59,301 nucleotides of DNA from an uncultured Gammaproteobacteria bacterium (GTDB taxonomy: Bacteria; Pseudomonadota; Gammaproteobacteria; PS1; Pseudothioglobaceae), in assembly GCA_902509905.1 (NCBI GenBank), contig CABWZI010000009.1, forward strand, positions 1-59,301, read 5' to 3'. Below are positions 32,026 through 52,337 of the stretch, piece by piece. The notes under the pieces are model-generated. The model was not told where the DNA came from and did no database searches. It saw only the letters and a list, made by a program, of their open reading frames with translations. The position numbers were made by a program, and so were the translations under genes. The first letter of the stretch is position 1. Every line of letters starts with the position of its first letter.

Positions 32026-33186
32026 TTATACGCCATCAGGGTTAAATCTAGGCATGACTCTCTCAGAGAACAAAGACATACTTTTAAGTATTTTTTGATA
32101 GTCAAATCCAGGAAATTGCTGAAGAAGCATGATGTGTTTGAGGCCTATTTCCTCATTGTATTTTTGAATCTTTTCTGCTACGTATTCAGCATCACCCACC
32201 CAGATGAGTTCATACTTCATTAGAAAATCGAACCACTCACCATTAAGGTCTTCATCAGTTGGGTTTGCGTCATCATCCAAATAGGCTTTACGGGTCCAGC
32301 TTCCTTCTGGTCGCGAGCCACTGAGATACTCATAGTAGCCATTGATTGCATTTCTCACATCTTTGTCTGCCTGCTCCATTGTTTCAGCTACATAGATGAC
32401 AGTACAAACTCCAACGCCATCTCCTCTTTGATAGATAGTTCCATTATGTGACTCTGCATCAGCGTATGCATCCCAGCAGCTTACTAGTTTTCCGGGAGGG
32501 CTTGACATACCGATTACATTAAAACCCCTCTCTGCAGCTAGTTTGTAAGTATGTGGTGAGTTTGACATCAGCCATACTGGAGGATGAGGATTTTGATAAG
32601 GCCTAGGATGAATGTACATGCCGGTATACTCTCCCTCTTCAGAGTGGTACTCTTTTTCAAGAGGCATTAAAAAACGATTTGTTTCTTTCCAGCCAGGAAC
32701 TGGAAACTCATAAAATTCACCTTTATGATTAAAGGGATCCATAGTCCATGCCTTTAAAATAACTTCAAGCGACTCCATAAAAAGTCTATAACTTTTCTCA
32801 TTATCACGACGATCTGCATCTTTATTAAACTGAAGTGTAACTCTCTCATTGATGCCTTTTGCTACTCCAAAATCAACTCGACCTTCTGTCATATTGTCAA
32901 GAAGAGCCACATCCTCTGCAACCCTCAAAGGATGCCAATCTGGAAGAACTATAGGGGCCTGACCAACTCTTATTTTTTTTGAATGAGATGCCAAATCAAG
33001 AGACATCATTATTGGATTTGGTGGAGCGTTCAGATACCCATTGTGAGCGAAGTGATGCTCAGTAAGCCATACTGTTGTGAAGTCTGCTTGCTCTGCAAGT
33101 TGACTTTGTTCTCGCATCATCTTAACGACTCGATTCCAGGGAATGTTCTCACCAGGATTAAAAAACGGGACAAAATCAAATCTCAT
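32026..33186 (-). CDS. Luciferase-like flavin-dependent monooxygenase (LLM class)
   Basis: 386 residues with a bacterial luciferase TIM barrel: VWLTEHHF near residue 40, RVGQAPIVLPDWHPLRVAED, the DFGVAKG strand, and a C-terminal YELIWVGDAEYVAEKI segment. Such enzymes use FMNH2 from a separate reductase and O2 to oxidise sulfonates, amines, hydrocarbons or esters. The substrate is not evident and no dedicated flavin reductase is adjacent. It is the first gene of the leftward four-gene operon. Confidence 0.87.
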   Translation of the reverse strand: MRFDFVPFFNPGENIPWNRVVKMMREQSQLAEQADFTTVWLTEHHFAHNGYLNAPPNPIMMSLDLASHSKKIRVGQAPIVLPDWHPLRVAEDVALLDNMTEGRVDFGVAKGINERVTLQFNKDADRRDNEKSYRLFMESLEVILKAWTMDPFNHKGEFYEFPVPGWKETNRFLMPLEKEYHSEEGEYTGMYIHPRPYQNPHPPVWLMSNSPHTYKLAAERGFNVIGMSSPPGKLVSCWDAYADAESHNGTIYQRGDGVGVCTVIYVAETMEQADKDVRNAINGYYEYLSGSRPEGSWTRKAYLDDDANPTDEDLNGEWFDFLMKYELIWVGDAEYVAEKIQKYNEEIGLKHIMLLQQFPGFDYQKILKSMSLFSERVMPRFNPDGV

Positions 33187-33246: not shown

Positions 33247-35010
33247 TTAGTAATCCTTAAGTCCATCTATTAAAGGTTGAATATATGCCCAATGTTTTTT
33301 CCAAGCTTCTGAGCTCCCTTTATACATTTTCTTTTTAACCTGGTTGGAGCTTATAGTTTTGACTAGATTATTATTATTATGAAAATCTAAACAATTTTCG
33401 TCCCATTCAAGCCCACAATATTTAATTAAACTTTTAGTTTCCTCTTCTTGATTCTCAGTAAGATCCTCATAACAAATATTGTGAATTTTTCCTGGAAATA
33501 GATTATTCCAAAAACTCATTAGATTTTTATATGAAGCATAAAAACCTGATAAATCACTAAAATTATTTGAATACCCATTATTTTTTGAGCCAAAATAGTA
33601 CCTATAATTTGACCAACAAACTGCTCTGGCATCTCTTTCAAGGTGGATAATTTTAGCATCTGGAAAGGCTGAAAAAATAAAGCCAATATATTGAAAATTC
33701 AATGGTAACTTGTCAGTAATAAAATTTTCCTCTACATTAAAATCTTCCAGTCTATTAAGGTATTCATTTTTAACAAAGTTAATAGCCTCCCTACTTAAGC
33801 TACTTATATCACCTTGTATAAAGTTTTTTAATATTGGAGATGCTAGTTTAGTTAGATAATTTAATTCTCCAGCACCATAAACCTGTTTATGAGAAGAAAT
33901 AATTTGCTCAACTAGTGTTGTTCCAGATCGAGGCATTCCTAAAATAAATAAAGGAGTTTTTTTAGATCTTGTTATTGATTCAGAAATTCCAATAGATGGA
34001 TTTTTTTTTCCAAACATTTTTTTAATCGCCTTATGATACTTCAAATGCTCAGACAGTGAATAGCCTGATTCAGTCTTTTGTAATTTGTTTCCTTTATTAA
34101 GGAAGTTAAAAAAATCAACTTGGTTTCCATTTTTTTCACTAATATTTGCTAGTCCGAGGTAAATATGTATTTTTTCAGATTGACTTAGCTTTTCAGATGA
34201 TTGAAGAGATTTGAATCTATTGACGTAAATATCATTAGGAAGAAATTTTTTTAAATGACTTAAACTATGAAAAGAGGTGGCGTGATTATCTAATTCAATA
34301 GCTTTTTCATAATGTGATATTGCTTCATCTATTTCCCCCATATCTTGATAGATAAAACCTAAATTGTAATATGCTTTGACATAATCTGGTTTAAGTTCAG
34401 AAGCTTTCTTATAATGAATAATCGCTTTTTCTGTTTGATTAAGGCTTCTGAATACAGTCCCTAAGTTGTTGTGAGCTATGAAGTTATCCGGCTCTATTTC
34501 TATAATTTTTTCATACTGCTCTATTGCATCAACATTATGATCAAGCTCCCTAAGGGTGTTACCTAAGTTAATAAGAGTATTGATATTTTTTCTATTGATT
34601 TCTAAGGCACTTTCATAGCTTTCAATCGCATCAAAATATCTGCCTAACTCATGATAAGCAACACCAAGATTGAAATGTGCTTGTTCGAATACTGAATCTG
34701 AAGTAATTACATTTTTAAAACTTTCAATTGCTTTTTCAAATAATCCAATTTTGAGAAATATGTTGCCTAAGTTAAAATGTGCATCAGCATAATCAGGTTT
34801 AATTTTCAAAGCAATCTTTAAACTCTCTTCAGCCTTAGTCCAGTTCTCTGAGGAAATGAAGCATGCGCCTAATAAATTATAAAGCAGAGGTACATTTGGA
34901 TATTTCTCATTTAAGGAACTTATCTTTTTGATAGCCTCATTAATTTCACCTTTTGAATATAAATCTATAGCCGCATCAATTTGTTCAGCAGTAATTTCTT
35001 TGTTGTTCAT
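33247..35010 (-). CDS. TPR-repeat sulfotransferase (TPR array member 1)
   Basis: 587 residues. An N-terminal cap (residues 1-45, ending NEKYPNVPLLYNLLGACF) is followed by about six to seven 34-residue TPR units with the recurring A-NLG-----G---AI--Y--AI-I-P pattern. From about residue 350 there is a sulfotransferase domain with the 5'-phosphosulfate loop LGMPRSGTTLVEQI and the 3'-phosphate region RDARAVCWSNYRYYF, so PAPS is the likely donor. The acceptor is unknown. It is divergent from the other five array members and has no long perfect repeat with them. No signal peptide, so probably cytoplasmic. Confidence 0.9.
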   Translation of the reverse strand: MNNKEITAEQIDAAIDLYSKGEINEAIKKISSLNEKYPNVPLLYNLLGACFISSENWTKAEESLKIALKIKPDYADAHFNLGNIFLKIGLFEKAIESFKNVITSDSVFEQAHFNLGVAYHELGRYFDAIESYESALEINRKNINTLINLGNTLRELDHNVDAIEQYEKIIEIEPDNFIAHNNLGTVFRSLNQTEKAIIHYKKASELKPDYVKAYYNLGFIYQDMGEIDEAISHYEKAIELDNHATSFHSLSHLKKFLPNDIYVNRFKSLQSSEKLSQSEKIHIYLGLANISEKNGNQVDFFNFLNKGNKLQKTESGYSLSEHLKYHKAIKKMFGKKNPSIGISESITRSKKTPLFILGMPRSGTTLVEQIISSHKQVYGAGELNYLTKLASPILKNFIQGDISSLSREAINFVKNEYLNRLEDFNVEENFITDKLPLNFQYIGFIFSAFPDAKIIHLERDARAVCWSNYRYYFGSKNNGYSNNFSDLSGFYASYKNLMSFWNNLFPGKIHNICYEDLTENQEEETKSLIKYCGLEWDENCLDFHNNNNLVKTISSNQVKKKMYKGSSEAWKKHWAYIQPLIDGLKDY

Positions 35011-35170
35011 TTATCTTTTTAGATTCAATATATATCAATTATTTCACAGATATATTTTACAGTCTTCTTAAGTTGATGAATATCATAGAAAGGAAAAAAT
35101 AAAGATAAGTTTTTATAAACCTAGTTTAAAATTATTATTTATTAAAATTGCTATTGCGAATGTAATTTAA
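35011..35170. other. Divergent AT-rich gap at the start of the TPR array
   Basis: 160 bases between the leftward sulfotransferase gene and the rightward array. It is nearly all A and T; a GAAAGG near 35090 is too far from the ATG to be a ribosome site. I see no convincing promoter pair, hairpin or coding frame. The array transcripts in both directions presumably start here. Confidence 0.35.
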
Positions 35171-35875
35171 ATGAAAAAAAATGATAAAAATCAAACAGTT
35201 TTAACTCAACCAGAGATTAGCCATGTGATGTCTCTTTATTCTAATGGTAAGATTGATAAGGCCATTGAAGAAGTTAAGAAATTAAATGAGAGATTTCCTA
35301 ATGTTCCCTTACTATTTAACATAATTGGTGCTTGCTACAAAGCAAAGGGTGATTTTGAGGCTTCTGCCAAAATGTTTACAAATGCAGTTTCTATTAAACC
35401 AGACTATGCAGAAGCTCATTTCAATCTTGGTGTAGTTTCAAGAGGCTTAGGTAAAAAAGATTTCGCTATTGAATGTTATCTAACTGCAATTAAGATTCAA
35501 CCCAACTATCCTGATGCTCATAACAACCTTGGTAACTTATACAGGGAAATCAATAATTTTGATGATGCGGTCGGGAGTTACGAATGGGCTATCGCATATA
35601 AACATGATTTTTTTCAAGCATATAACAATTTGGCTATTTGCCAGATGGAAAACAATTTGAATGATCTTGCAATTATTAACTATCAGAAAGCAATTAAGAT
35701 TAATCCAAATTATATTGATGCTCATTTTAATAGTGGCCTACTCTTTAAGAGTCTTGATAACTTCCAACAGGCAATTAATTCTTTTAATCATGTCCTTAAT
35801 ATCAATCCTGAGCATGTCCAAGCTAAAAATAATTTGATTGAAATTGAGAAAATGTTAAATACGACCCTTAAATGA
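35171..35875 (+). CDS. TPR-only protein (TPR array member 2)
   Basis: 234 residues: the same cap as other members (NERFPNVPLLFNIIGACYKAKGD split across residues 40-62) and about five TPR units, ending in GLLFKSLDNFQQAINSFNHVLNINPEH. No catalytic domain follows, and the gene ends in an ordinary stop 29 bases before the next start. It may be a partner scaffold, or the remnant N-terminus of a member whose enzyme domain was lost by recombination. Confidence 0.85.
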   Translation: MKKNDKNQTVLTQPEISHVMSLYSNGKIDKAIEEVKKLNERFPNVPLLFNIIGACYKAKGDFEASAKMFTNAVSIKPDYAEAHFNLGVVSRGLGKKDFAIECYLTAIKIQPNYPDAHNNLGNLYREINNFDDAVGSYEWAIAYKHDFFQAYNNLAICQMENNLNDLAIINYQKAIKINPNYIDAHFNSGLLFKSLDNFQQAINSFNHVLNINPEHVQAKNNLIEIEKMLNTTLK

Positions 35876-35887
35876 AGATATCAAAGA

Positions 35888-36971
35888 CCTTAATAAGCTG
35901 AATAATGTCGAGTAAAGAGCTATCTCAACTTCAGGTCAATTCTATTATTGAGCTCTTCTCTAATGGTTTGTTCAAAGAGGCCTTAGAAAGTATTTCTAGA
36001 CTGGAAAAAGAGTATTTAGATAATCCCATACTTTTTAATATTTCCGGCGCTTGTTATGCAGCCTTGGGTGATTTAAGTGAAGCAGTTAAAAATTATGAGC
36101 AAGCCATATCAATCAATCCAAGTTATTACAAAGCCTATTTTAATCTTGGTAATGTATTTGAAGAGCTAAACCAACTTGATTCAGCAGTATTGAGCTATCA
36201 AAGGGTGATCGAAATTGAACCGAGTTATGCTGAAGCTCATAATAATTTAGGCAATGTTTTCAGGCGCTTAAATCAAATTGATGCTTCGATTCAAAGTTTA
36301 GAACAAGCTGTTACTATTAAACCAGATTATGTCGAATCTCATTATAGTCTTGGTGTGATTTTTCAGGAGCTTGGCAGGTTTGAGGAGGCAGTGAGCTGTT
36401 ATAAGCTTATACTAGAATATAAACCAGATTTTGCTGAGATACACAATAATCTAGGAGTAGTGCTTCAGGAGTTGGGGCAAACCGATAAAGCGATCAACCA
36501 TCTTGAGAAATCTTTAGTCTTAAATCCAGGATTTAAGGAGGCTCACAATAATCTTGGCAATATATGGAGGAATGCTGGTAAATTAGCAGAGGCAGTTGAA
36601 TCTTATATTAAAGCCATAACAATTGAACCAAACTATTTTGAAGCTCAATCTAACCTAGGGACAACTTACCATGAGTTGAATCAGTTGATTGATGCAGAGA
36701 GACATTATAAAAAAGCGATTGAAATTAATCCAAATCAAGTAGATATGCAATATAACCTTGGATTAGTCCTGCAGAGTCTTGAGAAATTTGATGAATCAAT
36801 TGAACATTATCAGAAGACCTTAAAAATTAATCCAGGAAATGCTGATGCTCATAATAATTTGGGAATATCGTTTAAGGAGTTAGGCCAACTAGATAAAGGA
36901 TTAAAAAGTTTTGAAAAAGCGCTAGAAATTAATCCAGATTATGCTGAGGTTCACAATAATATTGGTAATGT
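35888..36971 (+). repeat. Direct repeat A, copy 1 (1,084 bp)
   Basis: Identical by line-by-line reading to 38173-39256 (offset 2,285). It starts 17 bases before the ATG of the 757-residue TPR-sulfotransferase and ends in codon 356, at an NNIGNV TPR motif. It encodes the N-terminal cap and about nine TPR units. Confidence 0.93.
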
Positions 36972-38178
36972 ATGTATGGAGCTTGGAGATGTTCATCAAG
37001 CTATCGAAAATTATAAATCTGCCTTACTAATAAATAAAGATTATGCTGAGGCAAATAATAACTTAGGGCTCAGCTTAATGAGTATGGGGGAGAGAAAATT
37101 AGCATTAAGTTTTTATGAAAAAGCAATTCAAATTGATCCTAAATATGCCTCAGCATATCATAATCTAAGTGCCCTAAAAAGTTTTAGTAATGATGATGAT
37201 GAAATTGTTCAAATGCAATTATTGTCATCAGATATAAATACAAGTGACATTGATAAAGTGTATTTATTTTTTTCGTTAGCTAAGGTATTTGAAGATTTAG
37301 ATGATCATGAAAAATTATTTGAATATCTGAATCAAGGTAATTTACTCAGAAAAAAATTATTAAATTATTCAATCAGTGACGATAAAAAAAGGCATTTGTT
37401 AATAAAAAAAATGTTTAGCAAATCTACTAAAAATAATAGTAACCAATTATCTTTTAAAGAATCTAAACAAACGCCAATTTTTATTGTTGGAATGCCTCGT
37501 TCAGGAACTTCTTTAGTTGAGCAAATTCTTTCAAGTCATGGCGATGTCTTTGGTGCTGGTGAATTAACATTTGCAGGTGAGTATGCTATGACGATGTTGG
37601 CTCAAGCTAAACTTAATGGTGAGCATGGCTTTGACAACACTAGCTTTTCTCAAATGCGAAATTATTATTTAGATTCAATAAGTAGACTCAATTTTTCAGA
37701 AAAATTTGTCACTGACAAAATGCCTACAAACTTCGAATATATAGGATTTTTGATTTCTGCATTTCCTGAATCAAAGATTATTAATATAAAAAGAGATCCT
37801 AGAGCAACATGTTGGTCAATCTATAAATATTATTTCAGTGATAGAGGGAATGGATATGCTTATGATATGAATGATTTAGCATCATTCTATAGGCTTTATT
37901 CTGATTTGATGAATTTTTGGCACAATCTTTATCCTGAAAAAATTTATGATTTGACTTATGAAGAATTAACTATTAATCAGGAAGGTGAAACTAGAAAACT
38001 GCTTGACTTTTGTAATTTAGAATGGGATTGGAGTTGTATGGATTTTCATGAGAATAAGCGAGCTGTAAAAACAAAAAGTGCAGTTCAAGTTAGGCAAAAG
38101 ATATATCAAGGAAGCTCTGATTCATGGAAAAAATATATGTCTCATTTGCAACCTTTATTGAATCAACTGAGTCCTTAA
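35905..38178 (+). CDS. TPR-repeat sulfotransferase (TPR array member 3)
   Basis: 757 residues. The cap and roughly eleven TPR units fill residues 1-425; a helical linker follows, then a sulfotransferase domain from about residue 521 with VGMPRSGTSLVEQILSSHG (phosphosulfate loop), GAGEL and KRDPRATCWSIYKYYF (3'-phosphate binding). The first 355 residues and the 17 bases before the ATG are identical to array member 4, which carries a glycosyltransferase instead. Member 4 starts 11 bases after this stop. A PAPS-dependent transfer to a protein or glycan is likely; the acceptor is unknown. Confidence 0.92.
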   Translation: MSSKELSQLQVNSIIELFSNGLFKEALESISRLEKEYLDNPILFNISGACYAALGDLSEAVKNYEQAISINPSYYKAYFNLGNVFEELNQLDSAVLSYQRVIEIEPSYAEAHNNLGNVFRRLNQIDASIQSLEQAVTIKPDYVESHYSLGVIFQELGRFEEAVSCYKLILEYKPDFAEIHNNLGVVLQELGQTDKAINHLEKSLVLNPGFKEAHNNLGNIWRNAGKLAEAVESYIKAITIEPNYFEAQSNLGTTYHELNQLIDAERHYKKAIEINPNQVDMQYNLGLVLQSLEKFDESIEHYQKTLKINPGNADAHNNLGISFKELGQLDKGLKSFEKALEINPDYAEVHNNIGNVCMELGDVHQAIENYKSALLINKDYAEANNNLGLSLMSMGERKLALSFYEKAIQIDPKYASAYHNLSALKSFSNDDDEIVQMQLLSSDINTSDIDKVYLFFSLAKVFEDLDDHEKLFEYLNQGNLLRKKLLNYSISDDKKRHLLIKKMFSKSTKNNSNQLSFKESKQTPIFIVGMPRSGTSLVEQILSSHGDVFGAGELTFAGEYAMTMLAQAKLNGEHGFDNTSFSQMRNYYLDSISRLNFSEKFVTDKMPTNFEYIGFLISAFPESKIINIKRDPRATCWSIYKYYFSDRGNGYAYDMNDLASFYRLYSDLMNFWHNLYPEKIYDLTYEELTINQEGETRKLLDFCNLEWDWSCMDFHENKRAVKTKSAVQVRQKIYQGSSDSWKKYMSHLQPLLNQLSP

Positions 38179-39256
38179 TAAGCTGAATAATGTCGAGTAA
38201 AGAGCTATCTCAACTTCAGGTCAATTCTATTATTGAGCTCTTCTCTAATGGTTTGTTCAAAGAGGCCTTAGAAAGTATTTCTAGACTGGAAAAAGAGTAT
38301 TTAGATAATCCCATACTTTTTAATATTTCCGGCGCTTGTTATGCAGCCTTGGGTGATTTAAGTGAAGCAGTTAAAAATTATGAGCAAGCCATATCAATCA
38401 ATCCAAGTTATTACAAAGCCTATTTTAATCTTGGTAATGTATTTGAAGAGCTAAACCAACTTGATTCAGCAGTATTGAGCTATCAAAGGGTGATCGAAAT
38501 TGAACCGAGTTATGCTGAAGCTCATAATAATTTAGGCAATGTTTTCAGGCGCTTAAATCAAATTGATGCTTCGATTCAAAGTTTAGAACAAGCTGTTACT
38601 ATTAAACCAGATTATGTCGAATCTCATTATAGTCTTGGTGTGATTTTTCAGGAGCTTGGCAGGTTTGAGGAGGCAGTGAGCTGTTATAAGCTTATACTAG
38701 AATATAAACCAGATTTTGCTGAGATACACAATAATCTAGGAGTAGTGCTTCAGGAGTTGGGGCAAACCGATAAAGCGATCAACCATCTTGAGAAATCTTT
38801 AGTCTTAAATCCAGGATTTAAGGAGGCTCACAATAATCTTGGCAATATATGGAGGAATGCTGGTAAATTAGCAGAGGCAGTTGAATCTTATATTAAAGCC
38901 ATAACAATTGAACCAAACTATTTTGAAGCTCAATCTAACCTAGGGACAACTTACCATGAGTTGAATCAGTTGATTGATGCAGAGAGACATTATAAAAAAG
39001 CGATTGAAATTAATCCAAATCAAGTAGATATGCAATATAACCTTGGATTAGTCCTGCAGAGTCTTGAGAAATTTGATGAATCAATTGAACATTATCAGAA
39101 GACCTTAAAAATTAATCCAGGAAATGCTGATGCTCATAATAATTTGGGAATATCGTTTAAGGAGTTAGGCCAACTAGATAAAGGATTAAAAAGTTTTGAA
39201 AAAGCGCTAGAAATTAATCCAGATTATGCTGAGGTTCACAATAATATTGGTAATGT
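38173..39256 (+). repeat. Direct repeat A, copy 2 (1,084 bp)
   Basis: Second copy of the repeat at 35888-36971. It begins inside the last codons and stop of the preceding sulfotransferase gene and continues through codon 356 of the TPR-glycosyltransferase gene. After its end the two genes differ completely at base level, while the reading frame stays TPR-coding in both. Confidence 0.93.
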
Positions 39257-41000
39257 TTTTAGGATTTTAGGTAAATTTGAAGAGTCTATTGATTGTTATG
39301 AAAAAACTCTTTCCATAAAGCCAGATTACTTTGAAGCTCAAAATAATCTTGGCATTATTCTTATGCAACTAGGTAGACTAAATATGGCTAAAGAAATTTT
39401 TTCATCCTTAATACAATTGAAGTCAGACTACGCTGAAGCTTATTCCAATTTAGGTATTGTTCTTAATGCTCTTGGAGACCTTGATTCTTCACTTAAATGC
39501 TATGATCAAGCAATTTCTATTAAACCTAATTTAGCTCAAGCTTATTCTAATCGAGGTAATCTAATGATAGATTTAAACAATCGATTAGAAGCTGTTGAAA
39601 GCTTCAAAGAGGCATATAAATTAGAACCTGTGACTTCATTTAATTTAGGTAATCTTCTCCACTCTAAATTACATCTTTGTATTTGGGATGATTTGAAAAA
39701 CTCTCTTGATGAGATTAAAAAATATATCTATCAAAATAAAAAAGTTGTTGATCCCTTTCCTCTTCTTTCATTAATTGATGATCCTGAGCTTCATCAAAAA
39801 GCATCTCAAATTTATACTGATGATAAGTATCCTATGAATTTTGATTTACCTCAAATATCTAAATATCCAAAGCATCAAAAAATTCGTATTGGATATTTTT
39901 CTGCTGACTTTAGAATTCATCCTGTTGCTAATTTAACAGCAGAGCTTTATGAAATTCATGACAGAGATCAATTTGAGATTCATGCTTTTTCTTTTGGCCC
40001 CGATACAAATGATGAAATGAATTTAAGGATTAAGGCGGGTGTTGATTTTTTTCACGATGTTCAGTCAATATCTCATACTGAAGTTGCTCAGCTTGCACGT
40101 TCTCTAGAGCTTGATATTGCCATTGATTTAGGTGGTTTTACTCAAGACAATAGAACTGGAATATTTGCTATGAAGGCAGCACCAATTCAAGTTAATTATT
40201 TAGGCTATTCCAGTACTATGGGAGCAGATTATATGGATTATATAATAGCTGATAAGACCCTTATACCAGAAGATAAAAAGCAATACTACACTGAAAAGAT
40301 TGCCTATCTACCTGATAGTTTTATGGTTAATGATACTAAAAATAAGATATCAAAAATGAACTTCACTAGAAAGGAGGCTGGATTGCCAAGTAAAGGCTTT
40401 ATTTTTAGTTGTTTTAATCATCACTATAAGATTACCCCTTCAGTTTTTACTAGCTGGATGAAAATACTCTCTAAGGTTGAAGGAAGTATTTTATGGCTAA
40501 GTGATGGTAATGAAACAGGCATTCATAATCTCAGAAAAGAAGCAAAAAAACATGGTGTAGATAGTGATCGTTTGTTTTTTGCACCTCGTTTAGAATTGAG
40601 AGAGGATCATTTGAATAGAATCAAGCTGGCCAATCTCTTTCTTGATACGCTTCCATATAATGCACACGCAACTACTAGTGATGCACTTCAGGCAGGTTTG
40701 CCAGTATTGACGTGTATTGGAGAATCTTTTGCTAGCAGAGTAGCTGCAAGTTTAATAAACTCTGTTGGTCTATCTGAACTCATTGTTAAGACAAATAAAC
40801 AATATGAAAAAATAGCAATTGATTTGGCAACAAAACCTTTAAAAATGAAAAACATTAAAGATAAACTAGAGAAAAATCTAATAAGCTCTCCACTATATGA
40901 TACTCCTCTATATGTAAAACAGATTGAAAGAGCATATCTAACAATGTATAAAAGATATCAGGAAGAAAAATCTCCTGAACATATTTATGTTGAACTCTAG
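38190..41000 (+). CDS. TPR-repeat O-GlcNAc-transferase-like protein (TPR array member 4)
   Basis: 936 residues. The cap and about 13-14 TPR units (1-475) are followed by a GT41 (OGT/SPINDLY) catalytic region from about residue 485. It contains IGYFSADFRIHPVANL (matching the N-catalytic His region), LDIAIDLGGFTQDNR, IQVNYLGYSSTMGADYMDY, FSCFNHHYKITPSVF (the UDP-contacting Lys region) and HATTSDALQAGLPVLTC (sugar-nucleotide site). It probably moves a sugar from a nucleotide sugar to Ser/Thr of proteins, or another acceptor. Its N-terminus is shared with member 3 and its enzyme domain with member 5, so it is a mosaic of both neighbours. Confidence 0.92.
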   Translation: MSSKELSQLQVNSIIELFSNGLFKEALESISRLEKEYLDNPILFNISGACYAALGDLSEAVKNYEQAISINPSYYKAYFNLGNVFEELNQLDSAVLSYQRVIEIEPSYAEAHNNLGNVFRRLNQIDASIQSLEQAVTIKPDYVESHYSLGVIFQELGRFEEAVSCYKLILEYKPDFAEIHNNLGVVLQELGQTDKAINHLEKSLVLNPGFKEAHNNLGNIWRNAGKLAEAVESYIKAITIEPNYFEAQSNLGTTYHELNQLIDAERHYKKAIEINPNQVDMQYNLGLVLQSLEKFDESIEHYQKTLKINPGNADAHNNLGISFKELGQLDKGLKSFEKALEINPDYAEVHNNIGNVFRILGKFEESIDCYEKTLSIKPDYFEAQNNLGIILMQLGRLNMAKEIFSSLIQLKSDYAEAYSNLGIVLNALGDLDSSLKCYDQAISIKPNLAQAYSNRGNLMIDLNNRLEAVESFKEAYKLEPVTSFNLGNLLHSKLHLCIWDDLKNSLDEIKKYIYQNKKVVDPFPLLSLIDDPELHQKASQIYTDDKYPMNFDLPQISKYPKHQKIRIGYFSADFRIHPVANLTAELYEIHDRDQFEIHAFSFGPDTNDEMNLRIKAGVDFFHDVQSISHTEVAQLARSLELDIAIDLGGFTQDNRTGIFAMKAAPIQVNYLGYSSTMGADYMDYIIADKTLIPEDKKQYYTEKIAYLPDSFMVNDTKNKISKMNFTRKEAGLPSKGFIFSCFNHHYKITPSVFTSWMKILSKVEGSILWLSDGNETGIHNLRKEAKKHGVDSDRLFFAPRLELREDHLNRIKLANLFLDTLPYNAHATTSDALQAGLPVLTCIGESFASRVAASLINSVGLSELIVKTNKQYEKIAIDLATKPLKMKNIKDKLEKNLISSPLYDTPLYVKQIERAYLTMYKRYQEEKSPEHIYVEL

Positions 41001-41273
41001 AAAGAAAAAAACCAATACTTTAAAATGTAGAAATGAATAATTTAAATAATCAAACCAATTTAAGTAGAGAGCAGATTGATTCAATTATGGCGCTTTACAC
41101 AAGTGGCCAATTTGATAATGCTATAAAGAGAATTAAAGAGCTCAATGAACAGCATCCAAATGTACCTTTACTCTTTAATATTCTTGGTGCATGCTATAAA
41201 GCAATTGGTGAAATAGATGGTGCATTACAGATGTTTGAGGTTGCAACAAAAATCAAACCAGATTATGCTGAAG
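39644..41273 (+). repeat. Direct repeat B, copy 1 (1,630 bp)
   Basis: Identical by reading to 42193-43822 (offset 2,549). It spans the whole glycosyltransferase domain of member 4, the 32-base intergenic gap, and the first 80 codons of member 5. It therefore couples a catalytic end with the next gene's N-terminal cap in one block. Confidence 0.93.
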
Positions 41274-43549
41274 TCCACAATAATCTTGGAATCACCTTGT
41301 TGCAAATAAAAAAAATTGAAGAAGCTATAAAAAGTTTTAAAATTGCAATTTCCCACATGCCGAATTTTTATGATGCATATTATAATCTTGGATTGGCATA
41401 TAAGCAAAACGGACAGTTAACAGACGCTGAACTAAATTTCAGAAGAGTGATTGAACATAAACCTGACTCAGCCAAAGCTCATAATAATTTAGGAACAACT
41501 TTGCAAGAACTTGGACAGTTAAATTTCGCAATTGAGAGCTTTAATCAAGCAATAATTATTAATCCAAATTATGCTGAAGCATTCAATAATCTTGGGACAA
41601 CTCTCAAAGATTTAGGGCAACTAGATGAGGCTAATATAAATTTTAAAAAGGCAATTGAAGTTAATCCAGATTTTTATATTGCATACTATAATTATGGTAC
41701 GACTCTCATAGATTTAAGTCGTAACCTTGAAGCAATTGAAAGTTTTAAAAAAGCTATTTCAATTAATTCTAACTATCCTGAGGCATACAATAATCTAGGT
41801 ATAGCTTTTAAGGGTGAAAAACAAACTAAAAATGCACTTAAAAGCTTTGAAAAGGCGATCTCCATCAAAACTGATTATGCTGAAGCTCATAATAATCTTG
41901 GCCTAGTTTTTATGAATCTTGGACAAATGAATGAAGCTCAAAAGTCATTCGAAACTGCACTTCAATTCAAACCAGATTATGCCTATGCCTATAATAATTT
42001 TGGTTCTGTTCTTAAGCAGATTGGAAAGTTTTCTAACTCAATCATTTATTATAAAAAGGCTCTTCAAATCAATCCTGATTTTTTTGAAGCACATAATAAT
42101 TTAGGTAACGCTTATAAATACTTGAAGCGACACAATGAGTCCCTAGATTGCTATAAGACTACTTATAGAATTAAACCAGATGCCGATTATATTTTAGGTA
42201 ATCTTCTCCACTCTAAATTACATCTTTGTATTTGGGATGATTTGAAAAACTCTCTTGATGAGATTAAAAAATATATCTATCAAAATAAAAAAGTTGTTGA
42301 TCCCTTTCCTCTTCTTTCATTAATTGATGATCCTGAGCTTCATCAAAAAGCATCTCAAATTTATACTGATGATAAGTATCCTATGAATTTTGATTTACCT
42401 CAAATATCTAAATATCCAAAGCATCAAAAAATTCGTATTGGATATTTTTCTGCTGACTTTAGAATTCATCCTGTTGCTAATTTAACAGCAGAGCTTTATG
42501 AAATTCATGACAGAGATCAATTTGAGATTCATGCTTTTTCTTTTGGCCCCGATACAAATGATGAAATGAATTTAAGGATTAAGGCGGGTGTTGATTTTTT
42601 TCACGATGTTCAGTCAATATCTCATACTGAAGTTGCTCAGCTTGCACGTTCTCTAGAGCTTGATATTGCCATTGATTTAGGTGGTTTTACTCAAGACAAT
42701 AGAACTGGAATATTTGCTATGAAGGCAGCACCAATTCAAGTTAATTATTTAGGCTATTCCAGTACTATGGGAGCAGATTATATGGATTATATAATAGCTG
42801 ATAAGACCCTTATACCAGAAGATAAAAAGCAATACTACACTGAAAAGATTGCCTATCTACCTGATAGTTTTATGGTTAATGATACTAAAAATAAGATATC
42901 AAAAATGAACTTCACTAGAAAGGAGGCTGGATTGCCAAGTAAAGGCTTTATTTTTAGTTGTTTTAATCATCACTATAAGATTACCCCTTCAGTTTTTACT
43001 AGCTGGATGAAAATACTCTCTAAGGTTGAAGGAAGTATTTTATGGCTAAGTGATGGTAATGAAACAGGCATTCATAATCTCAGAAAAGAAGCAAAAAAAC
43101 ATGGTGTAGATAGTGATCGTTTGTTTTTTGCACCTCGTTTAGAATTGAGAGAGGATCATTTGAATAGAATCAAGCTGGCCAATCTCTTTCTTGATACGCT
43201 TCCATATAATGCACACGCAACTACTAGTGATGCACTTCAGGCAGGTTTGCCAGTATTGACGTGTATTGGAGAATCTTTTGCTAGCAGAGTAGCTGCAAGT
43301 TTAATAAACTCTGTTGGTCTATCTGAACTCATTGTTAAGACAAATAAACAATATGAAAAAATAGCAATTGATTTGGCAACAAAACCTTTAAAAATGAAAA
43401 ACATTAAAGATAAACTAGAGAAAAATCTAATAAGCTCTCCACTATATGATACTCCTCTATATGTAAAACAGATTGAAAGAGCATATCTAACAATGTATAA
43501 AAGATATCAGGAAGAAAAATCTCCTGAACATATTTATGTTGAACTCTAG
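41033..43549 (+). CDS. TPR-repeat O-GlcNAc-transferase-like protein (TPR array member 5)
   Basis: 838 residues. The cap (NEQHPNVPLLFNILGACYKA, residues 35-54) and about 10 TPR units precede a GT41 domain starting near residue 387. That domain is identical to the one in member 4 down to the C-terminal PEHIYVEL. The TPR units between residues 81 and 386 are unique. The first 80 residues are identical to those of member 6. Same catalytic motifs as in member 4. A different superhelix on the same enzyme suggests a different target with the same sugar chemistry (inference). Confidence 0.92.
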   Translation: MNNLNNQTNLSREQIDSIMALYTSGQFDNAIKRIKELNEQHPNVPLLFNILGACYKAIGEIDGALQMFEVATKIKPDYAEVHNNLGITLLQIKKIEEAIKSFKIAISHMPNFYDAYYNLGLAYKQNGQLTDAELNFRRVIEHKPDSAKAHNNLGTTLQELGQLNFAIESFNQAIIINPNYAEAFNNLGTTLKDLGQLDEANINFKKAIEVNPDFYIAYYNYGTTLIDLSRNLEAIESFKKAISINSNYPEAYNNLGIAFKGEKQTKNALKSFEKAISIKTDYAEAHNNLGLVFMNLGQMNEAQKSFETALQFKPDYAYAYNNFGSVLKQIGKFSNSIIYYKKALQINPDFFEAHNNLGNAYKYLKRHNESLDCYKTTYRIKPDADYILGNLLHSKLHLCIWDDLKNSLDEIKKYIYQNKKVVDPFPLLSLIDDPELHQKASQIYTDDKYPMNFDLPQISKYPKHQKIRIGYFSADFRIHPVANLTAELYEIHDRDQFEIHAFSFGPDTNDEMNLRIKAGVDFFHDVQSISHTEVAQLARSLELDIAIDLGGFTQDNRTGIFAMKAAPIQVNYLGYSSTMGADYMDYIIADKTLIPEDKKQYYTEKIAYLPDSFMVNDTKNKISKMNFTRKEAGLPSKGFIFSCFNHHYKITPSVFTSWMKILSKVEGSILWLSDGNETGIHNLRKEAKKHGVDSDRLFFAPRLELREDHLNRIKLANLFLDTLPYNAHATTSDALQAGLPVLTCIGESFASRVAASLINSVGLSELIVKTNKQYEKIAIDLATKPLKMKNIKDKLEKNLISSPLYDTPLYVKQIERAYLTMYKRYQEEKSPEHIYVEL

Positions 43550-43822
43550 AAAGAAAAAAACCAATACTTTAAAATGTAGAAATGAATAATTTAAATAATC
43601 AAACCAATTTAAGTAGAGAGCAGATTGATTCAATTATGGCGCTTTACACAAGTGGCCAATTTGATAATGCTATAAAGAGAATTAAAGAGCTCAATGAACA
43701 GCATCCAAATGTACCTTTACTCTTTAATATTCTTGGTGCATGCTATAAAGCAATTGGTGAAATAGATGGTGCATTACAGATGTTTGAGGTTGCAACAAAA
43801 ATCAAACCAGATTATGCTGAAG
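42193..43822 (+). repeat. Direct repeat B, copy 2 (1,630 bp)
   Basis: Second copy of 39644-41273: glycosyltransferase domain of member 5, the 32-base gap, and the first 80 codons of member 6. Divergence begins abruptly after DYAE in the third TPR helix. Confidence 0.93.
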
Positions 43823-45258
43823 CTTTTTTTAATTTAGCATTAATTTATAATGAATTGAATCAAATTGATAATGCTTTGGCCTTCTATAATAGAGCATTAG
43901 AGGTTAATCCTAAATATTCTGAAGCGCATAATAATCTTGGTATTATATATTTGAATTCTAAAAATTTTAATAAAGCTGAAGAGCATTTTAATATTGCAAT
44001 TTCTTTAAATAATGATTTTGCTGAGGCACATAATAATTTAGGTTCCACATTCCAGGAATCGAATCAAATTGAAAAAGCTTTAGTAAGTTATGAGAGAGCT
44101 ATTGCTTTGAAGCCAAACTATGCTCAAGCTCAAAATAATTTAGGGATATTACACCAAAAAATTGGTGATAATAATGCTGCTTTATTGTGCTATGAAAATG
44201 CAATATTGAGTGAATCAAGTTATTCTGAAGCTCATCATAATTTAAGCTTAATTAAAAAATACTCAGAAGGGGATGAGCAAATAATTCAGATGCTCTCTCT
44301 AACAAATTCTGATAAATTGAATAAATCTGAAAAGTCACGCATTTTTTTTGCTTTAGCCAAGGCTCATGAAGATTTAAATCAAAAAGAAGATTTTTTTAAG
44401 TTTTTACATGAAGGAAATAGCCTCCGCAAAGAAGACCTAAGTTTTTCATATATTGATTCTGAAAAAAATTATAATCCCTTTATTAAAGAACTTTTTAAAG
44501 AACAAATTCCTGCTAATTTTAGGAATAAAAATAGTTTTTCTAATATAAGGCCAATTTTTATTGTTGGCATGCCTCGTTCAGGAACTTCACTTGTTGAGCA
44601 AATTTTATCAAGTCATGAAAAAGTCTATGGGGCAGGAGAGCTTTATAATTTGACAGAAATTCTTGTTCCAGTCTTGCAAGACCATATAAAAGATGTCAAT
44701 AAAAAACTGACTGAAGAAAAGATAATTTCAATAGGTGAAGAGTATCTAGAGAAATTAAATAATCTTAATGTAGATAAAAAAATAATCACTGATAAATGGC
44801 CTCTAAATTTTCGACATATTGGGTTCATCTTATCTGCTTTTCCGCAAGCAAAAATTATTAATTTGAGTCGTAATCCAATTGCAACTTGCTGGTCAATTTA
44901 TAAACATTATTTTGGAAATAATGGGAATGGTTGGTCATATGATTTTGATGATATTATAAAATTTTATGACGCATATTTAGATCTTATGAGCTACTGGAAT
45001 GAGTTATATCCAAAAAAAATATATAACATTGTTTATGAAGATTTAACAGCTAACCAAAAACGAGAAACTCAAAAGTTGTTGGATTATTGTGATTTAGATT
45101 GGGATGAGAAATGTTTGGAATTTCATAAAAATAAACGTATTGTTGAAACTGCGAGCGCAACACAGGTGAGAAAGAAAATGTACCAAGGCAGCTCCAATGA
45201 GTGGAAAAAGTATAAAGAATTCTTAAAACCATTAACCAATCATTTTGGAAAAAATTAA
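43582..45258 (+). CDS. TPR-repeat sulfotransferase (TPR array member 6)
   Basis: 558 residues. The first 80 residues are identical to member 5; TPR units continue to about residue 225. The sulfotransferase domain starts near residue 323 with VGMPRSGTSLVEQILSSHE, then GAGELYNLTEI and SRNPIATCWSIYKHYFGN for 3'-phosphate binding. It is related to, but clearly diverged from, the sulfotransferase ends of members 1 and 3. It is the last gene of the array, 54 bases before rluD. Confidence 0.92.
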   Translation: MNNLNNQTNLSREQIDSIMALYTSGQFDNAIKRIKELNEQHPNVPLLFNILGACYKAIGEIDGALQMFEVATKIKPDYAEAFFNLALIYNELNQIDNALAFYNRALEVNPKYSEAHNNLGIIYLNSKNFNKAEEHFNIAISLNNDFAEAHNNLGSTFQESNQIEKALVSYERAIALKPNYAQAQNNLGILHQKIGDNNAALLCYENAILSESSYSEAHHNLSLIKKYSEGDEQIIQMLSLTNSDKLNKSEKSRIFFALAKAHEDLNQKEDFFKFLHEGNSLRKEDLSFSYIDSEKNYNPFIKELFKEQIPANFRNKNSFSNIRPIFIVGMPRSGTSLVEQILSSHEKVYGAGELYNLTEILVPVLQDHIKDVNKKLTEEKIISIGEEYLEKLNNLNVDKKIITDKWPLNFRHIGFILSAFPQAKIINLSRNPIATCWSIYKHYFGNNGNGWSYDFDDIIKFYDAYLDLMSYWNELYPKKIYNIVYEDLTANQKRETQKLLDYCDLDWDEKCLEFHKNKRIVETASATQVRKKMYQGSSNEWKKYKEFLKPLTNHFGKN

Positions 45259-45312: not shown

Positions 45313-46269
45313 ATGGAAGAGCTAAAAATCATTATTCCAATGAGAATGCAAAATCAAAGATTGGATATTGTTTTGGCTAAAATGCTTCCTAATTATTCAA
45401 GATCAAAATTAACGTCCTGGATAAAATCTGGTGATGTTTTGATCAATCAAAAAAAGTTTAAACCAAAAGACAAATCTAATGGTAACGAAATAATAACTTT
45501 AAAGTATGTTCATCAGAATGATTTAAATTGGATTGCTGAAAAAATTTCATTAGACATCGTATATCAGGATGATCATATCATTGTATTAAACAAGCCCTTT
45601 GGAATGGTTACTCATCCTGGAGCTGGAAATTGGAGAGGAACTCTCGCAAATGCTCTTTTACACTATGATCAGAATTTATCTAAACTTGATAGGGCCGGCA
45701 TAGTCCATAGGCTGGATAAGAATACATCAGGTTTATTAGTAGTAGCTAAAAATTCTAAGTCGCAAAAAAATCTTGTTTGTCAGCTTCAAAAACACTCTGT
45801 AAAGCGAGAATATTCAGCTATAGTTTATGGGCATATGATTTCTGGAGGTACAGTTGATGAACCAATTGGAAGACACTCTAAAGATAGGGTTAGACAAGCG
45901 GTAATAAGAAGTGGAAAAGATGCCATTACACATTACAGGGTTGTAAATCGATATGCTAATCATACTCATGTAAAAGCCATTCTTGAAACTGGTAGAACAC
46001 ATCAAATAAGAGTGCATCTGTCTCATATTGGACATCCGTTGATCGGAGATCAAATTTATGGTGGAAGATTGAGATTTCCAAAAGGAGCACAAGATGAGTT
46101 AAAAGTTGCTTTGAAATCTTTTTCAAGGCAGGCGCTTCATTCAAAAAAATTATCATTAATACATCCTGAAACCGGTAAAAAAATGACATGGAAAATTGAG
46201 CTTCCAGAGGATATGATTAATCTTTTAAATGTTTTAAGAGAATTTGATACAGCTATAGATCAAGAATAG
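45313..46269 (+). CDS. rluD: 23S rRNA pseudouridine synthase, RluD type
   Basis: 318 residues. An N-terminal S4 RNA-binding domain (residues 15-60: RLDIVLAKMLPNYSRSKLTS) is followed by the RluA-family core with catalytic Asp135 in HRLDKNTSGLLV and the later HQIRVHLSHIGHPLIGD. It makes pseudouridines 1911, 1915 and 1917 in helix 69 of 23S rRNA, and RlmH (also in this window) methylates one of these. pgeF follows 2 bases later, the classic rluD-yfiH order. Confidence 0.93.
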   Translation: MEELKIIIPMRMQNQRLDIVLAKMLPNYSRSKLTSWIKSGDVLINQKKFKPKDKSNGNEIITLKYVHQNDLNWIAEKISLDIVYQDDHIIVLNKPFGMVTHPGAGNWRGTLANALLHYDQNLSKLDRAGIVHRLDKNTSGLLVVAKNSKSQKNLVCQLQKHSVKREYSAIVYGHMISGGTVDEPIGRHSKDRVRQAVIRSGKDAITHYRVVNRYANHTHVKAILETGRTHQIRVHLSHIGHPLIGDQIYGGRLRFPKGAQDELKVALKSFSRQALHSKKLSLIHPETGKKMTWKIELPEDMINLLNVLREFDTAIDQE

Positions 46270-51471: not shown

Positions 51472-51497
51472 ATTAAATATTCTAAATGGAGAATAAA

Positions 51498-52337
51498 ATG
51501 AAAAAATTAATCGCACTATTCGCGACTACAGCTGTAGCTTCAACTTCTGCTATGGGTGCAATCGCTTTAAGTGGAACAGCTTCAGTATCATATGATGATA
51601 ATGGATCGTCTCCTTCTTCTACTTCTTACGATGCTGACATTGCATTAGTAGGTACAGCAGGAGGAACTACCTTCACTTACGGTATGGATATTGACCGTAC
51701 TAATCCAGCTACAACTAGCGCAGTTCTAGCTACAACAATTGGTCCAGTTACTATTTCAGCAGATATGTTTGATGAAGCTTCGGCTGATACAACTGCTTCT
51801 GGTGGTCAGCAATATGAATCAGTTGATACAGGTGTAACTGTAAGCCTTGACGCTCCTGTTGGTGATGCTACTATTGGTCTAGATAATTCAGGTAACGTAT
51901 CAGTATCTGGTACTTGGTCTGGTGTTACTATTTCACATACAATCAAAAACGGTGCTGACACGACTACTGGTTCTGCATCAATTGCAGGTATGGATATCAG
52001 CGTAACTAATGACGCTGGAACATCTTCATGGTCAATTGGTACTACTGTTAGTGGCGTAGCTCTAACTCTAGACAGTGACAATGATATTACTGCAGCATTT
52101 GGTGTTGCTGGTAACACTATGACAGTTAGCCACGTTTCTGCGGTTGCTTCTGCAGCAGCTAAAGCTGGTACTGCTTCAGGTACTGGAACTAACGGTTATG
52201 GTAAGATGTCAGTTACATCTGCTAAAGCTTACTCTACAGTTGCAATCTCACGTGATCTAACTTCAGGTGCTGCATTGTCTGCTACGTATAGCTCAAAAGA
52301 TGATTCACTTACACTTAAGGCTTCTGTTGCATTCTAA
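51498..52337 (+). CDS. Porin-like outer-membrane beta-barrel protein
   Basis: 279 residues from the ATG at 51498. The in-frame ATG at 51486 is rejected because it overlaps the ribosome site GGAG and would put a charged segment ahead of the signal peptide MKKLIALFATTAVASTSAMGA. The mature protein is Thr, Ser, Ala and Gly rich with alternating polar/hydrophobic strands (VTISADMFDE, VTVSLDAPVGDATIGLD) and ends in SLTLKASVAF; a terminal Phe is the classic outer-membrane barrel sorting signal. It has almost no Lys or Arg and no Cys in the mature part. Strong promoter, structured leader and terminator point to high expression. Substrate unknown. Confidence 0.82.
   Translation: MKKLIALFATTAVASTSAMGAIALSGTASVSYDDNGSSPSSTSYDADIALVGTAGGTTFTYGMDIDRTNPATTSAVLATTIGPVTISADMFDEASADTTASGGQQYESVDTGVTVSLDAPVGDATIGLDNSGNVSVSGTWSGVTISHTIKNGADTTTGSASIAGMDISVTNDAGTSSWSIGTTVSGVALTLDSDNDITAAFGVAGNTMTVSHVSAVASAAAKAGTASGTGTNGYGKMSVTSAKAYSTVAISRDLTSGAALSATYSSKDDSLTLKASVAF

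Follow-up and report, generated by a model that had tools for sequence, protein, structure and literature searches.

Within a stretch of 59,301 nucleotides from an uncultured gammaproteobacterium (the window) lie six neighbouring genes whose proteins have similar tetratricopeptide repeat (TPR) arms, and which end in a sulfotransferase (ST) head, in a GT41 glycosyltransferase (GT) head, or in no head at all. What does such a row of proteins modify, and with what?

Organisation of the array

All six TPR genes proposed in an earlier sequence-only reading were recovered as open reading frames with the same boundaries (Table 1). TPR matches are found by Pfam in 6/6 of the proteins, and the heads are as that reading described them: three sulfotransferases (Sulfotransfer_3, PF13469), two GT41 (Glyco_transf_41, PF13844, at 276–277 bits in genes C and D against a gathering cut-off of 25), and one protein, of 234 aa, with TPR-type matches in which Pfam found no catalytic domain. 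What had been described as a shared N-terminal cap is better read as the first pair of TPR-like repeats than as a domain of its own. In each of the six proteins an Asn recurs at one TPR position over three or more consecutive repeats.

Gene A is divergent, and the remaining five genes run in the same direction with gaps of 11–32 bp. A promoter between the two directions is presumed from gene order only, as a scan of the array region for promoters and terminators gave no signal above shuffled sequence. The GC content of the array is 0.31–0.33, as against 0.35–0.39 elsewhere in the locus, and this was so in 7/7 loci measured (the window and six of the 11 array-bearing relatives described below).

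Table 1. Features of the array, its repeats and its flanks in the window.
Feature	Position	Strand	Basis
Presumed luciferase-like monooxygenase, left flank	32026..33186	-	Anchor comparison
Gene A, TPR arm + sulfotransferase head, 587 aa	33247..35010	-	PF13469 E 1e-41; recurring TPR Asn
Divergent intergenic stretch, 160 bp, presumed promoter region	35011..35170	.	Gene order only
TPR-only protein, 234 aa, no catalytic head	35171..35875	+	ORF, Pfam
Direct repeat R1 copy 1, 1084 bp, start of gene B	35888..36971	+	Exact repeat scan
Gene B, long TPR arm + sulfotransferase head, 757 aa	35905..38178	+	PF13469 E 1.8e-44
Direct repeat R1 copy 2, 1084 bp, start of gene C	38173..39256	+	Exact repeat scan
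Gene C, arm as in B over 356 aa + GT41 head, 936 aa	38190..41000	+	PF13844 E 5e-82
Direct repeat R2 copy 1, 1630 bp, GT head of C + spacer + start of D	39644..41273	+	Exact repeat scan
Gene D, arm unlike C + C-type GT41 head (451 aa identical), 838 aa	41033..43549	+	PF13844 E 3e-82
Direct repeat R2 copy 2, 1630 bp, GT head of D + spacer + start of E	42193..43822	+	Exact repeat scan
Gene E, start common with D (80 aa identical) + sulfotransferase head, 558 aa	43582..45258	+	PF13469 E 5.3e-43
Presumed rluD-like pseudouridine synthase, right flank, anchor for genus comparison	45313..46269	+	Anchor search

Two exact DNA repeats, absent from the sequence-only reading, run through the array. By R1, genes B and C have one arm and different heads; by R2, C and D have one head and different arms. 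The stretches of identical protein in Table 1 (the GT heads of C and D, the arms of B and C, the starts of D and E) result from these repeats. In addition, at least four changes of head chemistry are forced on a tree of the arm starts (37 rows, one unlabelled, with incompletely settled bootstrap). The proposal of modular arms combined with two chemistries is supported, and so is module swapping, seen both in the repeats and in the tree.

Exact repeats of this length in a draft of 46 contigs could be a product of assembly, and the copy number, which comes from the assembly alone, could be higher than it appears. We nevertheless regard it as very improbable that the repeats, and hence part of the array, are an artefact, and assembly is unlikely as the source of the array content. 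By reasoning, each repeat closes a repeat-unique-repeat loop, so that the segments peculiar to B, C, D and E are expected to be real. Moreover, the genome that we take as Ca. Thioglobus singularis PS1, closed and checked by PCR by its authors, has exact repeats of 834 bp among its GT genes, and genome G004, a single contig, has one of 483 bp.

The array site in the genus and in other families

Array-type genes occur at the same place in 11/18 congeneric loci anchored on rluD, PS1 among the carriers; four sites are without them (judged from ORFs of at least 60 aa) and three could not be judged. The left-flank monooxygenase is present in 9/18 of the relative loci. The TPR-only protein has counterparts of 227–233 aa in G004, G019, G021 and G023. 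The array is therefore more than a chance assemblage, and not the one-off that would have counted against the sequence-only reading; the conserved synteny which that reading proposed to look for is present within the genus. It is a changing row of enzymes at one chromosome site in many close relatives. The PS1 clade has been called cosmopolitan by its describers.

The two chemistries also go together. Among 29 genomes of the genus, ST is found in 10/10 with GT41 and in 5/19 others (Fisher test, p=0.0002, with the 15 genomes having a match counted as ST and ancestry ignored; p=0.007 in the 16 genomes at least 80% complete, ancestry again ignored).

Mixed arrays unique to the genus were considered and rejected. 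At least six gammaproteobacterial genomes from five other families (G151, G153, G154, G186, G220 and G264), read by eye among the matches listed, have TPR-GT41 and TPR-ST genes no more than about 3 kb apart, and TPR and heads were confirmed for 13 proteins of the six loci. To call the pairing unusual, as had been done, was thus too strong. A count that had pointed to rarity, with ST seen in 1/79 of the similarity-ranked loci among the matches listed, includes many short contigs and two loci (L040 and L042) from the genus itself. The mixed loci elsewhere resemble the window array in carrying both chemistries on TPR arms, and differ from it in that some neighbours in 4/6 of them have PEP/VPLPA/MYXO-CTERM-type tails, of the exosortase type, whereas exosortase was not found in the window's genus. 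A scan for direct repeats over 86 loci found no exact one of at least 100 bp in the array genes of these six. For viruses, 25 pattern matches to GT41 in IMG/VR included no relative, phage records gave no GT41 match, and seven of 16 viral loci were read.

The catalytic heads and their donors

The closest solved relatives of the ST heads are the protein-tyrosine sulfotransferases TPST1/2 (E 2e-8). The sequence similarity is low, and the PAPS loop PRSGT, one Lys and one Ser align. R332-S333-G334, E353, K405 and S438 are invariant in the alignment of 22/22 proteins. In the HMMER alignment E353 falls on the first Glu in the Gly-Glu-Glu of TPST2, a one-residue gap deciding which Glu it is; we take the catalytic residues of TPST2 to be E99 and K158. 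TPSTs are Golgi enzymes and are not known to have TPR arms, and cytoplasmic protein sulfation in bacteria is known mainly from RaxST of Xanthomonas.

Genes for the putative donor PAPS adjoin the heads. In 7/7 genomes having a short CysC, its gene either adjoins an ST gene or is separated from it by a single gene, and in two of these the intervening gene is CysQ-like; enzymes of the CysQ type clear PAP, the product of sulfation. CysC occurs in 12/15 genomes with ST and 3/14 others (p=0.003, Fisher, 29 genomes; p=0.010 in the 16 more complete ones; ancestry ignored in both, and weaker extra CysC-like matches in G008 and G013 not counted apart). For short CysC alone the values are 0.006 and 0.08. 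G007, G010 and G028 have CysC and no ST, and in G006, G015 and G016 ST is present and CysC was not found.

The GT41 heads are nearest to the solved structures of human OGT (E 3e-73) and XcOGT (1e-66), and are predicted from their sequence to adopt the GT-B fold. H97 and K267 are invariant in 14/14 aligned domains, and align with a His and a Lys of OGT that we take to be His558 and Lys842. In the sequence alignments, the binding sites of both kinds of head are thus intact, in keeping with the first reading. Like OGT and SPINDLY, which are also GT41, the array proteins have a TPR superhelix with a recurring Asn followed by a GT-B head.

The donor lobe of the GT heads is 88.6% identical within genomes and 57.0% between them (six pairs from four genomes and the window; 0/5000 label shuffles). 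The lobe is homogenised in the window and in 3/4 of the compared genomes, the exception being G008, whose two lobes are only 55.5% alike. The corresponding values are 40.2 within and 39.3 between genomes for the TPR arms, and 56.3 and 57.4 for the ST heads, in which no homogenisation within genomes was found. Several arms sharing one donor lobe per genome is a difference from OGT and SPINDLY.

A second difference lies in the neighbouring genes. In 5/10 GT41-bearing genomes of the genus, rmlB lies within the GT41 gene run, and the neighbours would make dTDP-sugars; in PS1, ST-GT-GT-GT-rmlB-rmlA-rmlC-rmlD form one tight same-strand run. Over the 29 genomes, rmlB is present in 6/10 with GT41 and 2/19 others (Fisher, p=0.009; p=0.036 in the 16 genomes at least 80% complete; ancestry ignored, and only the eight genomes with matches of at least 60% identity counted, weaker relatives in further genomes being dropped). 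G018 has its rmlB on another contig, and G006 and G013 have rmlB and no GT41. The search for rmlB gave no match in G000, G004, G019 and G021, which are four of the ten genomes with GT41; G004, which is 99% complete, has two GT heads and only an unassigned nucleotidyltransferase beside them. The sugar genes adjoining the array differ between strains; the rml set was named from the scan in G003, RfbH-like, epimerase and RmlC-like genes from G008, and the counterparts in G016 and G017 by eye, except for rmlB and the DegT-family gene of G016.

O-GlcNAc as the general chemistry, suggested by the first reading, is unsupported because of the dTDP-sugar genes in the gene runs of half the GT41 genomes. 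UDP-GlcNAc is the most likely donor for the GT heads of the window, since no rmlB-like gene was detected in its genome (89.6% complete) and the OGT-like His is kept. At the position that we align with OGT His920, there are heads with His and heads with Gly. In PS1 the likeliest donor is dTDP-L-rhamnose.

These results also bear on the idea that the array is in decay and without function, a family of repeats which only recombination preserves. Stops and frameshifts do break the array genes of G019, but in the other genomes all aligned proteins keep the catalytic residues, donor genes adjoin the heads, and the donor lobe is homogenised while the arms and ST heads are not. We find decay hardly credible as an explanation.

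Candidate targets and the proposed role

The array had been thought to have no described function. For its GT half there are described relatives, namely FlmG and the flagellin glycosylation islands of Enterobacteriaceae. According to the FlmG paper, the TPR domain of FlmG in Caulobacter crescentus binds flagellin; its N-terminal TPR domain picks the protein and the sugar is added by its C-terminal GT-B domain, both in the cytoplasm, as we propose for the array GT proteins. The same order, a TPR N-domain and a predicted GT-B-type C-domain (PF13844), is found in genes C and D. FlmG differs in its target, flagellin, and in needing pseudaminic acid, and the main text of the paper mentions no sulfotransferase partner. 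The enterobacterial islands, as their paper describes them, resemble the array in being variable and in having GT41 enzymes with rml and DegT-type sugar genes; they differ in being tied to flagellin and in having one to three glycosyltransferases per island, and the main text mentions neither sulfotransferases nor tetratricopeptide repeats.

The targets of the array are likely to be others. Flagellin was rejected as a target for the genus, PF00669 being found in 0/29 genomes, many of them incomplete (control positive in 4/14). Exosortase substrates were likewise rejected, with EpsH (PF09721) in 0/29 of the same genomes, although here the control was positive in only 1/14. The type IV pilin N-terminus (PF07963) is present in just 3/29 genomes (G003, G011 and G017), two of them among the ten with GT41, and type IV pilin was therefore rejected as a general target. 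We found no gene for a substrate within the array, and none consistently adjoining it. The protein encoded at 51486–52337 was considered as a candidate, since its counterparts in G006 and G018 have array-type genes close by; it has a signal-like start and no family match, and no functional link to the array was seen. Around the GT gene of G021 (L033), secreted-looking 'CPDGSEP' proteins were noticed.

Could the enzymes instead modify surface polysaccharide (LPS or exopolysaccharide), with the arms binding partners in the glycan machinery? A variable island of low GC with dTDP-sugar genes does resemble a glycan cluster, and the mixed arrays at L145 and L149, in two other families, adjoin genes that by eye are polysaccharide-export-like. 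However, the best solved relatives of both heads, OGT and TPST, act on proteins, the arms have the OGT-type Asn pattern, and no flippase, polymerase or other glycosyltransferase was recognised by eye in the arrays. Modification of polysaccharide is thus unlikely. Internal regulation, of the kind performed by eukaryotic OGT on many cytoplasmic proteins, would fit the GT head, which is close to OGT, and also a crude hydropathy scan, in which nothing in the six proteins is as hydrophobic as the stretch within the signal-like N-terminus of the 51486 protein. The four array-less sites, which amount to presence or absence between sister species, fit an accessory trait better, and the variation of the sugar genes between strains also speaks against regulation, which we consider improbable.

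On the basis of these observations, we hypothesise that the array is a cytoplasmic, FlmG-like protein-modification island, and think this probable. The OGT-type superhelix of each protein would hold the target polypeptide, so that the arms choose targets and the heads modify them: TPST-like heads would sulfate the target from PAPS, and GT41 heads would glycosylate it from a nucleotide sugar that is specific to the strain. The target would most likely be one or more exported surface proteins, and not flagellin, an exosortase substrate or, in most strains, type IV pilin. Recombination would enlarge and reshuffle the array, giving one head on several arms and one arm with both heads, and gene conversion would maintain one sugar-donor lobe per genome, matched to the donor sugar of the strain. 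The array thus resembles a set of tools with which surface proteins could be decorated.

More tentatively, the array may be a combinatorial system, in which GT41 heads using dTDP-deoxysugars in place of UDP-GlcNAc sit on several target-choosing arms, and gene conversion, focused on the donor-binding lobe, would switch the sugar of all arms together upon a change of sugar pathway in the strain, while the ST heads, whose donor PAPS is constant, would diverge. As an arm can bear either head, sugar, sulfate or both might then be added to a single target.

If the preferred reading, a protein-modification island, is right, the array is a natural experiment in OGT-type retargeting, with one head on many arms, and one arm with two chemistries, in one cell. 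TPR target choice and GT41 donor choice would be testable in a cultured marine bacterium, PS1. Cytoplasmic protein sulfation would be added to the repertoire of an ocean clade, and surface variation would be a likely pressure.

Arms, heads and exact repeats

An ORF check found the six array genes where the sequence-only reading had placed them, and Pfam bore out the domains named there for all six, in which a TPR superhelix (arm) may carry a sulfotransferase (ST) or a GT41 catalytic domain (head). The N-terminal cap described in that reading appears to be the first two TPR-like repeats. Five of the genes are co-directional, with gaps of 11-32 bp, and gene A is divergent. No signal-like or membrane-like stretch was found in the six proteins by a crude hydropathy scan. 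In each of them, three or more 34-residue repeats in a row carry Asn at an equivalent position, a pattern which we take to be the Asn ladder of OGT.

Features referred to in the text
Feature	Source	Coordinates
Serine-glyoxylate-type aminotransferase	window	15056-16165
Genes resembling malyl-CoA lyase and malate-CoA ligase	window	26997-30024
Gene A, TPR-ST	window	33247-35010(-)
TPR-only gene	window	35171-35875(+)
Gene B, TPR-ST	window	35905-38178(+)
Gene C, TPR-GT41	window	38190-41000(+)
Gene D, TPR-GT41	window	41033-43549(+)
Gene E, TPR-ST	window	43582-45258(+)
rluD-like pseudouridine synthase	window	45313-46269(+)
283-aa protein, signal-like start	window	51486-52337
Counterpart of YgfZ-like half in G006	window	52458-53285
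CysC and CysQ-type gene, adjoining a TPR-ST	G013, L028	7212-8609
CysC and CysQ-type gene, adjoining a TPR-ST	G018, L029	9379-10776
YgfZ-like N-terminal half, ST C-terminal half, single frame	G006, L030	9227-10888
APS kinase with CysN-like C-terminal piece	G000 contig C1, L137	3135-4139
Viral sulfotransferase	L150	4774-6318
Viral sulfotransferase	L158	4986-5807
Viral sulfotransferase	L161	4815-5867

At the DNA level, genes B and C have 1084 exact bases in common: they share an arm and differ in the head. C/D and then D/E have 1630 exact bases in common: here the head is shared and the arms differ, and the repeat runs on into the beginning of the gene that comes after. On the basis of these repeats, the window genome has one arm with two chemistries and one head with two arms. 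Exact repeats are suspicious in a draft assembly, and the window is an entire contig of a 1.52-Mb draft genome that is 89.6% complete. Since both repeats close loops, it can be reasoned that the content is fixed and that copy number alone is left open. Exact repeats of 834 bp also occur among the three GT genes of Ca. Thioglobus singularis PS1 (G003). The gaps of that genome (1,714,148 bp) were closed, and its sequence was confirmed by PCR (PMC4616169). Similar repeats are present in G004 (483 bp), G017 (314 bp) and G016 (128 bp); between the two GT genes of G008, a search for exact repeats of at least 40 bp found none.

When the starts of 37 arms are placed on a tree, proteins with the same head chemistry tend to group together (8 changes vs 15.2 in shuffles), and at least four changes of head chemistry are forced by well-supported branches. 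Two of the mixed-head pairs on this tree come from the window itself.

Donor supply and the donor lobe

The heads were compared using 14 GT heads from nine genomes, the two identical heads of the window being counted once. Over alignment columns 201-459, the C-terminal part, which presumably includes the donor-binding lobe of GT-B enzymes, mean identity is 88.6% within genomes (6 pairs, 4 genomes) and 57.0% between genomes (85 pairs, maximum 78.3); the within-genome value was reached in 0/5000 label shuffles. The N-terminal part is far less alike (61.6 within vs 53.0 between genomes; 83/5000 shuffles), and GT-protein arms are about as alike between genomes (39.3) as within them (40.2). The exception is G008, whose two GT heads differ (55.5). 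ST heads show no homogenisation (56.3 within vs 57.4 between). We read this as recombination and selection keeping all the arms of one strain on the same sugar, a need that PAPS does not impose. At the position aligned with what we take to be His920 of OGT, the window heads, both G004 heads and one G008 head have His, and the other GT heads have Gly or Ala, including that of G021, where rmlB was not found. This is a hint, no more, of a bearing on donor choice.

The donor-making genes travel with the heads, with counter-cases. In five GT41 genomes (G003, G008, G012, G016, G017) rmlB lies in the GT gene run, adjacent or one gene off. G003 has rmlBACD, with every gene scoring above threshold for one or more NCBIfam models, and by eye the gene order of G017 matches it. 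In G008, rmlAB is accompanied by an aminotransferase resembling RfbH (under the model cut-off) and by one protein each of the epimerase and RmlC families; by eye the G016 set resembles it, with a DegT-family aminotransferase, and in G012 a DegT aminotransferase accompanies rmlAB. The counter-cases are G000, G004, G019 and G021, GT41 genomes in which rmlB was not found (G004 being a single contig, 99% complete), and G006 and G013, which have rmlB without GT41.

An APS kinase of 199 residues lies next to an ST gene, or one gene off, in 7/7 genomes having it (G004, G013, G018, G019, where it is broken, G021, G023 and G027). The intervening gene in G013 is CysQ, over cut-off; that in G018 encodes an equally long member of the inositol-phosphatase family. 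Sulfation yields PAP, which CysQ clears. The L028 and L029 gene sets place genes for making PAPS and clearing PAP beside the enzyme that should use PAPS. The window genome encodes a longer APS kinase away from the array, so PAPS should be available. The L137 frame lies near glycine-cleavage-like genes, away from the array; frames of similar length occur in seven further genus genomes, and three genomes without ST genes also have this type.

With kinship ignored, co-occurrence across 29 genomes gave p=0.0002 for GT41-ST, 0.003 for ST-CysC and 0.009 for GT41-rmlB; in the 16 genomes whose completeness is 80% or higher, kinship again ignored, the values were 0.007, 0.010 and 0.036.

Conservation and wider distribution

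Anchored on the rluD-like neighbour, the same place was compared in 18 same-genus relatives. Array-type genes are present in 11 (L007-L015, L021, L024), of which L015 has a single ST, L007 and L021 show only the part before the contig end, and L024 holds broken pieces. Four relatives (L016, L017, L020, L023) have about 1.2 kb at the site, in which no array gene was found, and three (L018, L019, L022) are not judgeable. Order, head type and gene number vary. In all seven loci measured (window and six relatives), the GC content is lower within the array (0.31-0.33) than outside it (0.35-0.39). In G019 (L024, L036) the array, CysC and rluD-like genes are in fragments, with stops and frameshifts, from decay or sequencing error. 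The L030 frame is either a fusion or an assembly error, G006 having 6% contamination.

GT41 is found in 10/29 genus genomes and was found in 0/54 genomes from the ten further genera that make up the family; Sulfotransfer_3 is found in 15/29 genus genomes. Related GT41 heads occur in at least 79 loci of named genomes (Chlorobiaceae, beta- and gammaproteobacteria, Acidobacteria, Marinimicrobia and others); among those listed, two belong to the genus of the window, and ST was detected with the window queries in one of the 79. Of 204 genomes sampled from the class, including that of the window, 47 have GT41 and 122 Sulfotransfer_3. In at least six besides the window genome, spread over five families, a GT41 and an ST gene lie about 3 kb or less apart, and 13/13 of their scanned proteins have TPR and head by Pfam.

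In four of these six mixed genomes (L145 in G220, L147 in G153, L148 in G154, L149 in G151) some neighbours have exosortase-type C-terminal tails, of VPLPA/PEP-CTERM or MYXO-CTERM type. Six tailed neighbours were scanned, and one each in L145, L147 and L149 is over a sorting-signal family cut-off; the L148 call was by eye alone. These neighbours are possible substrates.

Sixteen IMG/VR contigs (L150-L165) encode sulfotransferases 27-45% identical to those of the window, some with TPR arms. Seven of these 16 loci were read, and in several of the seven the ST genes lie among phage tail- or fibre-like and neck-like genes (named by eye). The viral target may be a phage structural protein.

Target and comparison with known systems

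A Glu of the sulfotransferase heads may correspond to the catalytic Glu of TPST, the pairing turning on a one-residue alignment gap. The reading of the array as a whole has as its chief supports the PAPS loop, the neighbouring CysC/CysQ genes and the GT data. A surface or extracellular target is expected mainly because these enzymes adjoin genes for such proteins in several settings, and we infer that the target would be a surface protein. Flagellin and exosortase substrates were rejected as targets in the genus, and type IV pilins as a general target: flagellin and exosortase were each found in 0/29 genus genomes, and few of these genomes (3/29) have a type IV pilin-like N-terminus. The target is therefore probably something else.

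Two other observations concern the window. The 283-residue protein, Ser/Thr-rich by eye, has no match in Pfam or NCBIfam, and its counterparts in G006 and G018 have array-type genes close by. The genes which we take to encode malyl-CoA lyase and malate-CoA ligase, together with the aminotransferase, are possible serine-cycle genes.

The TPR domain of FlmG binds flagellin and its GT domain modifies it in the cytoplasm (PMC7591256), and enterobacterial flagellin islands hold GT41 together with rml and DegT genes (PMC4875605). No 'sulf-' word occurs in the main text of either paper. As described there, both systems depend on flagellin, which was not found in the genus of the window. Judged from search listings, no description of TPR-sulfotransferases or mixed arrays was found in the open literature. 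From this comparison and the literature search, the array is predicted from sequence to work like FlmG, yet to differ from the FlmG flagellin system and to join two chemistries.
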